From NCBI GenBank assembly GCA_905339255.1, contig CAJPFO010000085.1:1-64000 (forward strand): a stretch of 64,000 nucleotides of DNA, read 5' to 3'. Positions 26,951 through 52,726 of the stretch are shown piece by piece; the first letter of the stretch is position 1, and each line of letters begins with the position of its first letter. The stretch comes from Myxococcaceae bacterium. Its GTDB lineage: Bacteria; Myxococcota_A; UBA9160. Below the pieces are notes generated by a model, which was not told where the DNA came from, did not search any database, and was given only the letters and a program-made list of their open reading frames with translations. Both the position numbers and the translations under genes were made by a program.

Positions 26951-27454
26951 ACCATCTTCGCGATCCTCGGCGAGCTCGAGAACCTGCGCAACTACGACTT
27001 CTCGCGCATCCGCCACGTCACGAACACTGCAGATGCATTGCACGTCGAGCACATCCCGATGCTGAAGGGCCTCTTCCCGGGATCCCGCATCTACTCGATG
27101 TGCGGCCTCACCGAGTACGAGCGCTGCACCGACCTGCCTCCCGAGGACATCGACCGCAAGCCCGAGAGCGTCGGGATCGCCATCCCCGATACCGAGCTCT
27201 GGATCGTGGACGACGAGGGGTACCTCGACTTCGTCGGGCGGGTGGACGATGTGATCGAGTCGAGGGGAGAGATTCTCGGACGGGAGGTCGAGGCGGTGGT
27301 CGTGCTGGAGCGGGGAGCCGCGCCGACCGAAAAGGAGATCCAGCGGGAGTGTCAGACCGGGCTGGAGAACTTCATGGTGCCGAAGTACGTCGAATTCGTC
27401 GCCGAGCTTCCTGGGACGGACACCGGGAAGCTCGAGAAGACGGGGCTTTCGTGA
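26951..27454 (+). pseudogene. Decayed AMP-dependent acyl-CoA ligase fragment
   Basis: Reading on directly after the TAG gives an open frame with clear adenylate-forming-enzyme similarity. It contains FPGSRIYSMCGLTEYERCT (substrate/AMP-binding region), then GYLDFVGRVDDVIESRGE and the C-terminal domain with FMVPKYVEFVAELPGTDTGK (catalytic Lys). The N-terminal half is missing. Two internal gaps are visible by comparison with normal ligases: WIVD is joined straight to DEGYLDFVGR, and SRGE to ILGREVEAVVVL. No start codon with a ribosome site is seen before ATG 27059, which is internal. It is best read as a pseudogene with in-frame deletions. The GTG of the next gene overlaps its stop. Confidence 0.8.
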
Positions 27455-28241: not shown

Positions 28242-29315
28242 CTAGAGCGACCCCAGCCCCCCGGCGCCGGTCCGTTGCGCCGCGAGGAGCAACGCTTCGC
28301 GCACCCCGAAGTACGCGGGCTTCGGCCGGTAGTCGGCGTCGAAGAGGAGCGGCTCGCCCGAGCGGCCGACGAATCGCTCCATGCTCGTCGGGTGGCGGTC
28401 CGTGAAGAGCCAGACGGTGACGGCGCGGCAACGCGGAACCGAGGTGGCCGCTCGCAACGCACGCCGGTAGATCTCGCGCTGCTTCGCGAGTCGTGCGCCG
28501 CGATCGCCATCGAATCGCCAGGTGTGGACGTTGAGCTCGGTGATCTCGACGTCGAGGCCGAGCTCGGCGAAGCGTCCGAGCGTGGTGGCGATCGCATCCT
28601 CACTCGGGAGATCGATCGCCCCTGGCGGCGCCGCGGGGAGGAAACAGAGATGACCCTGGAATCCGACGCCGTGAAGCGGGGCACCGACGTCGAGCAGATC
28701 GTGAACCAGCCGGAAGTAGCGCTCCTGCTTCGGCCCCGACGCGAGGACGAAGAAGTCGTTCACGAACAGGCGTGCACCGGGGTCGACCTCGTGCGCGAGA
28801 CGGAGCGCGTCGGCGATGTGCCCCGCCCCGAGCCGGTCGAGAAAGACGTTCTCGCGCAGCCCATCGGATCGCCCGGGATCGCCGAGGACCGTGAGCGGCT
28901 CGTTCACGACGTCCCAGCGATCGATCCGTCCGGCCCAGCGGCCGACCACGGTCGCAATGTGTGATTCCACGGCTTCACGAAGCTCGGCTTCGCTCGTGAC
29001 GCCGGCGATGTACGCCGGGTTCGGAGGGTCCGTGGCACCGCCCCAGACGAGCGTATGCCCGCGAATGCGCATCTGGTTCGCCGTGGCGAATTCGACGATC
29101 GCGTCGCCGCCCGAGAAGTCGTAGCGATCGGGCTCGGGATGGAGGACTCCCCACTTCATTGCGGTGTAGGGCGTGATCGAGTCGAACTCGTGCGCGAGCA
29201 CGCGTGCGTAGTCGGGGTCGGACGCGAGGAGGTCGTGGTGCGCCGCGCTGCCGATCGAGAGTCCGGCGGCGGCGGCGAGCTCGCGGAGGCCCGTTCGAGA
29301 GGTCGTCTCCGTCAT
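28242..29315 (-). CDS. GH10 endo-1,4-beta-xylanase, no signal peptide
   Basis: This glycoside hydrolase (357 residues) has the GH10 acid/base motif WDVVNEP (Glu139), the nucleophile motif EITELNVH (Glu260), and the substrate-binding motifs FDSITPYTAMKW and IRGHTLVW. It has no signal peptide or lipobox, unlike the exported GH10 at 50.4 kb, so it is probably cytoplasmic and may act on imported xylo-oligosaccharides. The C-terminal region keeps VPRCRAVTVWLFTD. It stands 13 nt downstream of the TetR gene on the same strand and could be co-regulated with it. Confidence 0.92.
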   Translation of the reverse strand: MTETTSRTGLRELAAAAGLSIGSAAHHDLLASDPDYARVLAHEFDSITPYTAMKWGVLHPEPDRYDFSGGDAIVEFATANQMRIRGHTLVWGGATDPPNPAYIAGVTSEAELREAVESHIATVVGRWAGRIDRWDVVNEPLTVLGDPGRSDGLRENVFLDRLGAGHIADALRLAHEVDPGARLFVNDFFVLASGPKQERYFRLVHDLLDVGAPLHGVGFQGHLCFLPAAPPGAIDLPSEDAIATTLGRFAELGLDVEITELNVHTWRFDGDRGARLAKQREIYRRALRAATSVPRCRAVTVWLFTDRHPTSMERFVGRSGEPLLFDADYRPKPAYFGVREALLLAAQRTGAGGLGSL

Positions 29316-49088: not shown

Positions 49089-50357
49089 CTACTGTGAGAC
49101 CTCGAAGTATCCCTCGCCGACCTTTTCATTCGCTGAGTAAATGCCGACTACGTATCGACCCGGGTCGATCTTGCCGCGCTCACGAGCGCCATATCCTTGC
49201 AGCACAACTCCGTATTGATCGTCGCTCTTGACCTCCAGCGTCGCGGTGGGAAGCCACGTCACCAGTGACCGGTCCTCACCCCTTCTAACGTCCGCAGTCA
49301 GCACTGCCGATCCCGGCAAGAACCCATCGTCCGGAGAGATGAAGACACAGATCCAGACGAAAGACGTATCCGTCCGTGAGAATTGTCCTCTCGGCTTGGC
49401 GGTGTTGCATCGTCCTAGAAAATCGGCCAAACGCTGAGGATCGATCTCGTCGTCAACGAAGAAGACAACGTTCGCAACGTGTCCATGGATGGACCTGATC
49501 GCCTGAAGGCGGTCGAGGTCGTCACCTTCATTCGATGGCGGATCGGCGGTGGCCGGCCGAGCTGCTATGCGGGGCGAGGACGTCCCAGGCGAACCGGTCC
49601 GGCCCTTGGCCAATTCGACGGCTCGGGCTCGAATGGCGTCCGCCACGCCCTGCGAAACCCTCGCAACGAAATTGGGTTGGAACCAAGTGGCCTCTGCTGT
49701 GGTGTAAATGCTGGTCCACTCCGACTGGTCCTCGGCGAATTGCTGCGAGAAGACGACCTCACCCGTCGCCGCATCCATGACCTTCACATGAAGGACCTCG
49801 TGCACCGTCGCTTCGTTGATCGGCGCACCGAACGTCCCTGCGAACGGAATCCATTCGCGGCCTCGAGTTCCCACGTACGAGGTGTGATCATATCTGCCAG
49901 AGACGATGAAATCTGCGGAAGGGCCAGCCGACGAGCGCTTCACTGTTCGAAAGGCGCGCCCGCCGGCCAATGCTCCGAACAGAGCGTTTCCGATCATGAT
50001 GGGCATATCTTGGCGAAATTGCCTCATGTCCTGCGCGCCAAAGTTGGTCTTGATCTCGCCGAGGGTGAAAGAGTCGACCTGGACGACCACCTCAACAGGT
50101 GCCTCGAGATTCGTTTGAACGGCAATATGCTGCGGATCTACCGGCCTCGGGAGGGTCATGTTTGCGCGGCAGCCCGTGATGAGGAACAGCGCAATTGCGA
50201 TGGCTGAGAGCCGTGTTGAATCGATGATCGGTTGGACGCACTTTCTGGCAGCGAGCGGTGCGCTCGACTCTCCTGGAAGAGAAACAAGTGTCCGGAGGTG
50301 AGAGGGTTGCCGAGCGGAATCGATGCGGTGGGCCTCAGCGGACGAAATCGCGATCAT
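49089..50357 (-). CDS. Lower-GC hypothetical lipoprotein
   Basis: The protein (422 residues) has a lipoprotein signal ending LITGC near residue 63, preceded by an unusually long N-terminal tail. The start at 50357 is supported by AGGAG 6 nt upstream. The body includes DFIVSGRYDHTSYVG and VKVMDAATGEVVFSQQF, as in outer-membrane lipoproteins that handle stress or transport, plus a C-terminal beta domain (GYGARERGKIDPGRYVVGIYS). Codon use and GC are lower than in the neighbours, suggesting transfer. No family is recognised. Confidence 0.75.
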   Translation of the reverse strand: MIAISSAEAHRIDSARQPSHLRTLVSLPGESSAPLAARKCVQPIIDSTRLSAIAIALFLITGCRANMTLPRPVDPQHIAVQTNLEAPVEVVVQVDSFTLGEIKTNFGAQDMRQFRQDMPIMIGNALFGALAGGRAFRTVKRSSAGPSADFIVSGRYDHTSYVGTRGREWIPFAGTFGAPINEATVHEVLHVKVMDAATGEVVFSQQFAEDQSEWTSIYTTAEATWFQPNFVARVSQGVADAIRARAVELAKGRTGSPGTSSPRIAARPATADPPSNEGDDLDRLQAIRSIHGHVANVVFFVDDEIDPQRLADFLGRCNTAKPRGQFSRTDTSFVWICVFISPDDGFLPGSAVLTADVRRGEDRSLVTWLPTATLEVKSDDQYGVVLQGYGARERGKIDPGRYVVGIYSANEKVGEGYFEVSQ

Positions 50358-50426: not shown

Positions 50427-51626
50427 CTAGTCGAAGCGCGGAGCACGTAGGCGACGAAGGGCGATCGCGAGGAGCCCGAGCCCGGTGAGGAGGCACGACC
50501 CCGGCTCGGGAACCGCGAGCAGTGCTTCGCGCACGGCGAAGTAGGCGGGCTTCGGCGCGAGGTTCTCGTCGAAGAGCAGCGGGCGGTTCGGCGCGAGCCC
50601 GGGCCAGATCAGCGCTCGATCGAGCCAGGTGTCGCCGTCCTCGAAACCCCAGAGCGTGATGCCGGTTCAGCGCGAGACCGCGAGGCAGGCGCGGACGATC
50701 TCCGCGTACGCGTCACCTTGCGCAGTAGGAGGGTAGGGTTCGGCCGAGAGCGGCGCGATCGGGAGATCGACCTCCGTGAGCTCGACGTCGAGGCCGAGAT
50801 CCGCGACGCGCTGCAAGCGTGTGCGCAGATCGTCGAAGGCCGGCCTCGTCAAGAAGTGACCCTGGAAGCCGATCCCGTCGAGCGGCGCTCCTGCCGCGAG
50901 GAGGCTCGTGGCGAGGGCGAGCGTCGCGTCGAACTTCGCGTCGTCGCGTTCGAGCAGGACCTCGTTCACGAAGAGCCGCGCTGCGGGATCTGCCGTGCGC
51001 GCAGCGCGCAGCGCGTGGTCGATGTACGAGCTTCCGAGCGCCTGGTGGAACGGGCTTTCTGCATCGAGCGCACCGCCGACGGTCGCGAACGGTTCGTTCA
51101 CCACGTCCCAGCTCTCGATCCGCCCGGCCCAGCGGCCGACCACCGTCGCCACGTGCGAATCGATCCGCTCGCGGGCCCGCTCAGCGGGATCCGGTGCGGA
51201 CGCCAGATCGTCGCTCCACCAGGGAGGAGGTCCGTTCGCGCGGCCCCAGACGAGCGTGTGCCCGCGGATGCGCTGGCCATTCGCTTCGGCGAACTCCACG
51301 AGGGCGTCCGCGTCATCGAAATCGTAGCACCCGGGCGACGGCGAGAGCTCACGCCACTTCATCGCATTCTCGGCCGTCACCGAGCTCGCCTCCCGCGCGG
51401 CGAGCGCGGCGCCCGGCCGAGCGCCCGAGATCACGGAGCGATCGAGGGCGAAGCCGAGGTGGATCCCTGCCGCGGCCGCAGCCTCACGAAGGGTGCAGGC
51501 GCCCGGGCCATCCACGCAGGCCGGAAGGGCCGCCGCACCCGGCGGGGCGTTCGCCACGCCCGAGAGGGTTACGATCGCGAGGATCCAGAGGGGCGGGCGT
51601 GTCGCGGGGGGGCCGATCCAGCTCAC
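50427..51626 (-). pseudogene. Exported GH10 endo-xylanase with PEP-CTERM, interrupted by in-frame UGA
   Basis: A GTG start at 51626 leads to a signal peptide (PLWILAIVTLSGVANA). GH10 motifs follow: WDVVNEP (acid/base Glu178) and VELTEVDL (nucleophile Glu285). At codon 320 the frame has UGA (50669-50667). The frame then continues without any shift as TGITLWGFEDGDTWLDRALI and ends with a PEP-CTERM tail VPEPGSCLLTGLGLLAIAL plus basic RRLR. In other GH10 enzymes the UGA position is a Cys (ACLAVSRC-TGITVWG pattern), paired with Cys314. Truncation would remove the last barrel strand and the sorting tail. Nonsense mutation, sequence error or recoding are possible. Start has only a weak ribosome site. 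Confidence 0.85.
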
Positions 51627-51745: not shown

Positions 51746-52726
51746 ATGAAGGAGTTCCGGGGACGGATCGCGGTGGTGACGGGTGGCGGCACCGGGATGG
51801 GGCGCGAACTCGCGCGCCAGCTCTCGGCCGAGGGCTGCCACGTGGCGATCTGCGACGTGTCGGCCGAGCACATGGCGGAGACGAAGGCGCTCTGTGAGCG
51901 GCAGGCTCCACGCGGGACGCGGGTGACGACGCATCTTTGCGACGTCTCCGACGAGCGCCAGATGCTCGCGTTTCGCGACGCCGTGCAGGAGTCGCATGCC
52001 ACCGACCACATCCACCTGCTCTTCAACAACGCCGGCATTGGAGGTGGCGGGAGCTTTCTGAAGACCGACCGTGAGGAGTGGGACCGCACCTTCGCGATCT
52101 GCTGGGGAGGCGTCTACTACGGGACGCGCGCTTTCTTGCCGCTCCTCGTCGCGAGCCGCGAGGCGCACATCGTGAACACCAGCAGCGTGAACGGCTTCTG
52201 GGCCGTCCTCGGTCCCAACATCGCTCACACGGCGTACAGCGCGGCGAAGTTCGCCGTGAAGGGCTTCACCGAGGCGCTCATCACCGACCTGCGGTTGAAC
52301 GCGCCCCACGTGAAGGTCTCCCTCGTGATGCCGGGCCACGTCGGAACGTCGATCGTCATGAATAGCGCGGCCGTGCTCGGTCGCCCGAGCCCGAAGGAGA
52401 TGACTACCGAGGATCTCGTGCCGTACCGCGATCAGATGTCGCACCAGGGAATCCCGCGCGACGCCCTGAGCGATGACCAGCTCCGCGCCGCGCTCCAGAA
52501 GATCGGCGAGGACTTCCGCGACAAGGCGCCGCTCACGGGCGCCGCAGCCGCGACGATCATCCTGGAAGGCGTGCGATCGGACACCTGGCGGATCCTCGTC
52601 GGCGAGGACGCGAAGGCCCTCGACCGCATGGTTCGCACCGCGCCCGAGGATGCCTACGAGCCCGATTTCATGACCCGCCTGCGCGCGAAGGGGCTCTTCG
52701 ACCTTTCGCTGCAGCCCGAAGAGTGA
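51746..52726 (+). CDS. SDR-family oxidoreductase
   Basis: This classical short-chain dehydrogenase (326 residues) has VVTGGGTGMGRELARQL (NAD(P)-binding), LFNNAGIGGGG, NTSSVNGFW and YSAAKFAVKGFTEAL (YxxxK). The region GHVGTSIVMNSAAVLGRPSP is copied in diverged form at 55549-55671. The long C-terminal part (RTAPEDAYEPDFMTRLRAKGLF) is typical of SDRs that act on bulky hydrophobic substrates. The ATG is preceded by GGAGG about 10 nt upstream. Confidence 0.9.
   Translation: MKEFRGRIAVVTGGGTGMGRELARQLSAEGCHVAICDVSAEHMAETKALCERQAPRGTRVTTHLCDVSDERQMLAFRDAVQESHATDHIHLLFNNAGIGGGGSFLKTDREEWDRTFAICWGGVYYGTRAFLPLLVASREAHIVNTSSVNGFWAVLGPNIAHTAYSAAKFAVKGFTEALITDLRLNAPHVKVSLVMPGHVGTSIVMNSAAVLGRPSPKEMTTEDLVPYRDQMSHQGIPRDALSDDQLRAALQKIGEDFRDKAPLTGAAAATIILEGVRSDTWRILVGEDAKALDRMVRTAPEDAYEPDFMTRLRAKGLFDLSLQPEE
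52343..52465 (+). repeat. Direct repeat, 5' copy inside the SDR gene
   Basis: This 123-bp stretch of the SDR gene recurs without indels at 55549-55671 with about 14 base differences by eye. The two copies are 3.2 kb apart and in the same orientation. Confidence 0.85.

Follow-up and report, generated by a model that had tools for sequence, protein, structure and literature searches.

The GH10 xylanase gene described here raises the question of whether a UGA codon that falls exactly on a conserved cysteine is decoded as selenocysteine (Sec), is a genuine nonsense mutation, or is an error of the assembly. The gene lies in a stretch of 64,000 nucleotides (the window) of contig CAJPFO010000085.1, from a Myxococcaceae bacterium whose genome assembly (335 contigs, 4.28 Mb) is 90% complete. 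The following features of the window are relevant.

50427..51626, minus strand: reading frame of the GH10 xylanase, with a proposed GTG start at 51626, a TAG stop at 50427-50429 and one internal TGA
50667..50669, minus strand: the in-frame UGA, codon 320, in the column where homologues have Cys
50685..50687, minus strand: the first Cys of the C-x5-C motif, Cys314 (TGC), whose partner is the UGA position
28242..29315, minus strand: an intact second GH10 gene (paralogue), with Cys (TGC) at the matching column

Translation of the minus-strand frame from 51626 to 50427 yields 400 codons with the TGA at codon 320 as the sole interruption, as the preliminary description of this locus had stated. When the UGA is read through, the Pfam profile PF00331 matches residues 46-367 (E 2.9e-86), which is the full GH10 domain, with a score of 290 bits against a gathering threshold of 22.1, and the catalytic motifs WDVVNEP and LTEVD are present; we take Glu178 to be the acid/base and Glu285 the nucleophile. 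In the coding scan, the signal downstream of the UGA is as strong as that upstream. An uninterrupted frame on both sides of one stop, with undiminished coding signal, implies that the event is either recent or artefactual, and scattered decay of the gene can be dismissed because the frame contains no second stop. The preliminary description also traced the protein from a signal peptide to a PEP-CTERM tail. The N-terminus is indeed hydrophobic and the C-terminal tail (VPEP...R) resembles PEP-CTERM, but PEP-CTERM was not reported by Pfam at 1e-3. The xylanase gene and an SDR gene at 51746 (plus strand) are divergently oriented, and the neighbour gene on the strand of the xylanase, 49089-50357, showed no Pfam or NCBIfam family match.

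The column of the UGA is occupied by Cys in all 15 aligned homologues from the order and in all 89 rows of a wider alignment, in which the codon is TGC in 73 cases and TGT in 16. The wider alignment combines 80 contig loci with 9 whole-genome loci and, with three pairs that are duplicates near the site, represents 86 distinct sequences; the only two internal stops in this set are both at the C-terminal end. Among 15 extra loci that were left outside the alignments as distant or later additions, most of them more distant, the column holds Cys 11 times, Val 3 times and Gln once, with no stop. Overall, Cys is found at this column in 100 of the 104 compared homologues and UGA in none, so that this gene is the sole one in which UGA was seen. 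Judging from these comparisons, Cys at column 320 is strongly, although not universally, conserved. The earlier assignment of the UGA to the second Cys of a motif whose first Cys, Cys314, is present thus holds, as does the report of a Cys at the matching place of the 28.2 kb paralogue; in the alignment, the paralogue has Ala at the position of Cys314, and its Cys therefore stands without that partner.

We consider it highly likely that the UGA is an ordinary premature stop, one base away from TGC or TGT, in a normal GH10 xylanase gene of the secreted type, and that it is not recoded. Counting for this reading are the fragmented, 335-contig assembly, the precedent of a second stop in clpX, the lack of UGA among the homologues and the lack of a bacterial SECIS element (bSECIS) after the codon; counting against it is the position of the stop, at one of the protein's two most conserved Cys residues, in an organism that very probably inserts Sec. 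Reassignment of UGA as a sense codon throughout the genome was ruled out: UGA ends 498 of the 906 scored frames and is the commonest stop.

The clpX precedent emerged from a scan of 1.46 Mb of the genome (the window plus stretches in 61 + 40 + 20 pieces), in which 44 frames with a coding signal run on past a stop (22, 19 and 3 per batch). Twenty of the 44 were checked as read-through translations by Pfam, one more was checked by Pfam separately and, the xylanase aside, 22 were judged by eye. Most of the other Pfam-checked frames proved to be gene boundaries (L195, L266, L245 and L304 fall outside this assignment), and the 22 judged by eye were taken for starts of the next gene or shadow frames. 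An asymmetric version of the scan added two TGA frames, in L202 and L299, with no Pfam match. The proven mid-domain stops in the 1.46 Mb thus number two, the xylanase UGA and the following one.

L252:1346-1348 (contig C64): TAG in clpX, replacing the codon of what we take to be the Walker-B Glu

This clpX is the single gene in the genome above the family cut-off, and a genome of the same genus (G001) has GAG at the site of the TAG, in a 27-nt context that is otherwise identical. A living cell is unlikely to carry such a stop in its sole clpX, and one or more false stops are therefore very probably present in the assembly. The changes in the two genes are of the same kind, GAG to TAG in clpX and TGC to TGA in the xylanase both being G:C to T:A, which holds if the original xylanase codon was TGC and not if it was TGT. 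We give an even chance to the reading that the base in the metagenome assembly is wrong, or belongs to a minor strain, and that the living majority carries Cys. The rarity of mid-domain stops, two in 1.46 Mb with the xylanase itself as one of them, counts against error in that errors are evidently not rampant.

A real and recent nonsense mutation, in a lineage that is losing the xylanase and in which the 28.2 kb GH10 paralogue may partly replace it, is a substantial possibility that we place a little below even chances. The gene looks dispensable, given the patchy occurrence of GH10 in the order: matches at 1e-20 or better came from 13 of 79 genomes, and none from the same-genus or the same-family genome, both of which are incomplete. 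Gene decay also occurs in this part of the genome, as indicated by a decayed AMP-ligase remnant at 26951-27454 of the window. The remnant consists of pieces of PF00501 (profile positions 281-361) and PF13193 and the stop of another frame immediately precedes it. Two observations weigh on the other side: a search across the 400 codons of the xylanase gave no further lesion, and the same assembly has its other stop, unlikely to be real, in clpX. Were the base real, translation would stop after 319 residues, and the truncated product would keep the presumed catalytic Glu178 and Glu285 but would lack the end of the barrel, where the conserved WG motif lies, as well as the C-terminal tail. From these losses we infer that the product would probably be inactive or degraded.

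Insertion of Sec at UGA320 would create a selenoprotein xylanase with a Cys314-Sec320 bond replacing a disulfide. This could not be dismissed easily on the ground that the machinery is absent, since selA, selB, the tRNA-Sec and selD were all found. The genome also encodes a SelW-like protein of the Rdx family, which the scan for coding frames running through a stop detected on the same contig as the xylanase.

Contig C242: selA
Contig C255: selB
Contig C67: tRNA-Sec with a UCA anticodon
Contig C250: selD with an in-frame UGA
Contig C85:71945 (L229:11945), 8 kb beyond the window: SelW-like gene with a CGRU (CxxU) motif and an in-frame UGA

SelA, SelB, tRNA-Sec and SelD together are what is expected of a genome encoding a bacterial selenoprotein, and the SelW-like gene, with a bSECIS of -15.0 kcal/mol, is a probable true selenoprotein; the organism very probably reads UGA as Sec. 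Finding the complete set keeps the Sec reading alive. The xylanase itself has the other hallmark of a selenoprotein, an in-frame UGA where homologues have Cys, which makes position 320 a Sec/Cys column pair. A precedent exists in secreted trypsin-like proteases with a predicted Sec at a conserved Cys, in the available text of PMC2398784.

The preliminary description called the residue match striking; against this stands a count of nonsense routes. In the xylanase, 6 of the 83 one-step routes to a stop convert Cys to UGA (7%), or 6 of 45 when the count is restricted to G:C to T:A changes, and 2 of the 83 strike the pair of conserved Cys at 314/320; elsewhere in the genome, Cys to UGA accounts for 36 of 1,500 nonsense routes over a set of 11 genes. 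The match is therefore weak evidence, since one random stop would coincide in this way in 2-7% of cases. It shifts the odds towards Sec some 14- to 40-fold, and this shift is offset by three things: the SECIS is missing, no second Sec-containing homologue was found, and no redox role is known for the Cys. The Cys at this column is not known to be catalytic in GH10.

The region after the UGA was scored with a strict implementation, our own, of the published bSECIS geometry. As given in the available text of PMC13188914, the model requires a stem of 4-16 bp, a loop of 3-9 nt with a G within its first two positions, a location 16-37 nt from the UGA, and a minimum free energy of -7.5 kcal/mol or lower. 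The best hairpin allowed by this geometry is the following.

50627..50649, minus strand: hairpin of 7 bp with a mismatch, -5.3 kcal/mol, judged not to be a SECIS

At -5.3 kcal/mol against the limit of -7.5, no bSECIS was found after the xylanase UGA by the published rules. Both controls from the same genome pass, SelD at -9.6 and the SelW-like gene with 10 bp and the loop GUC. Across the order, 26 SelD matches with an in-frame UGA were listed; 25 loci were used, and after two of these were dropped, along with the match that had no locus, the UGA context was found in 23, of which 22 satisfy the limit (median -9.6). The order contains two kinds of selD, a UGA form in short frames (mostly 350-470 codons) and a UGA-less form in long frames (mostly 740-930 codons), the length of which suggests a fusion. 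As a background, 5,204 ordinary codon positions in 11 genes from this genome were scored: 25% are at -7.5 or lower and 41% at -5.3 or lower. The bSECIS model is thus unspecific in a genome so rich in GC, and even so the xylanase does not pass it.

Furthermore, a homologue with Cys at the site (L022) has a nearly identical hairpin (-5.0), which indicates that the xylanase hairpin stems from the conserved protein sequence. The 60-nt stretch after the UGA folds worse than its shuffles (z +1.6). Over positions +4 to +53, the shuffle z is -0.4 for SelW, +0.7 for SelD and +2.0 for the xylanase, so that shuffling does not single out true SECIS elements. A looser score that allows long internal loops gives the xylanase -10.7, and 7 of 15 Cys homologues score better (-10.8 to -21.5), which makes this score non-discriminating. 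The earlier observation that no convincing SECIS hairpin follows the UGA accordingly stands, the best candidate being under-strength by the published limit and next to SelD and SelW.

In the available texts of the marine selenoproteome studies, UGA clusters represented by a single sequence were not accepted, as possible sequencing errors, and at least two Sec-containing homologues were required (PMC1088965, PMC2398784). For the xylanase, none of the 104 homologues has UGA. With the hairpin and the homologues both against it, Sec insertion at UGA320 is very improbable, and we regard as equally far-fetched its specific form, in which Sec would replace one half of the C-x5-C pair of a secreted GH10 enzyme by means of a SECIS outside the known bSECIS model. 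The weak hairpin, the lack of UGA in homologues and the clpX stop support the order in which the preliminary description had placed the readings, with nonsense mutation and sequence or assembly error ahead of Sec. Low-level read-through without a SECIS, by a near-cognate tRNA such as that for Trp, is the least probable of all, a most unlikely source of a little full-length enzyme: the codon after UGA320 does begin with A, and UGA-A is a leaky context in some bacteria, but the stop is not conserved in relatives.

As it stands, an unrecoded stop matters little: the enzyme is a common one and its stop is probably false or recent. The case does offer a worked example of a false selenoprotein lead in a Sec-decoding genome: even where Sec is decoded, a few percent of random stops will be a UGA on a conserved Cys, and controls from the same genome, here SelD, SelW and clpX, help to tell such cases apart. 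If Sec were nevertheless inserted, a polysaccharide hydrolase that is secreted would have selenium in a structural bond, with no classical SECIS in its gene, and this would alter how bacterial selenoproteins are searched for. The xylanase would then be the first selenoprotein glycoside hydrolase in the literature searched, given that none appears in the available texts of a 2026 review, the GOS paper and the deep-Sep paper or in literature listings.

Compared with known systems, the xylanase resembles SelD, the SelW-like protein and the secreted trypsin-like proteases in having UGA where homologues have Cys, and its genome decodes Sec; the proteases are the nearest precedent found, in the available text of PMC2398784, for Sec in a secreted hydrolase. 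It differs from known selenoproteins in having no bSECIS, no second Sec-containing homologue and no known redox site. With GH10 xylanases such as Cex of Cellulomonas fimi (1exp, 3cuf), it shares the full domain and both catalytic Glu motifs, and ACMQVTRC of Cex aligns with its C-x5-C motif. The two Cys of Cex form a disulfide; unlike the Cex-type enzymes, the xylanase has UGA in place of the second Cys. The closest parallel within the same assembly is clpX, in which one base change has likewise placed a stop within a conserved motif, the gene being intact elsewhere, with the difference that the xylanase stop strikes a Cys of a dispensable gene and the clpX stop a Glu of a housekeeping gene.
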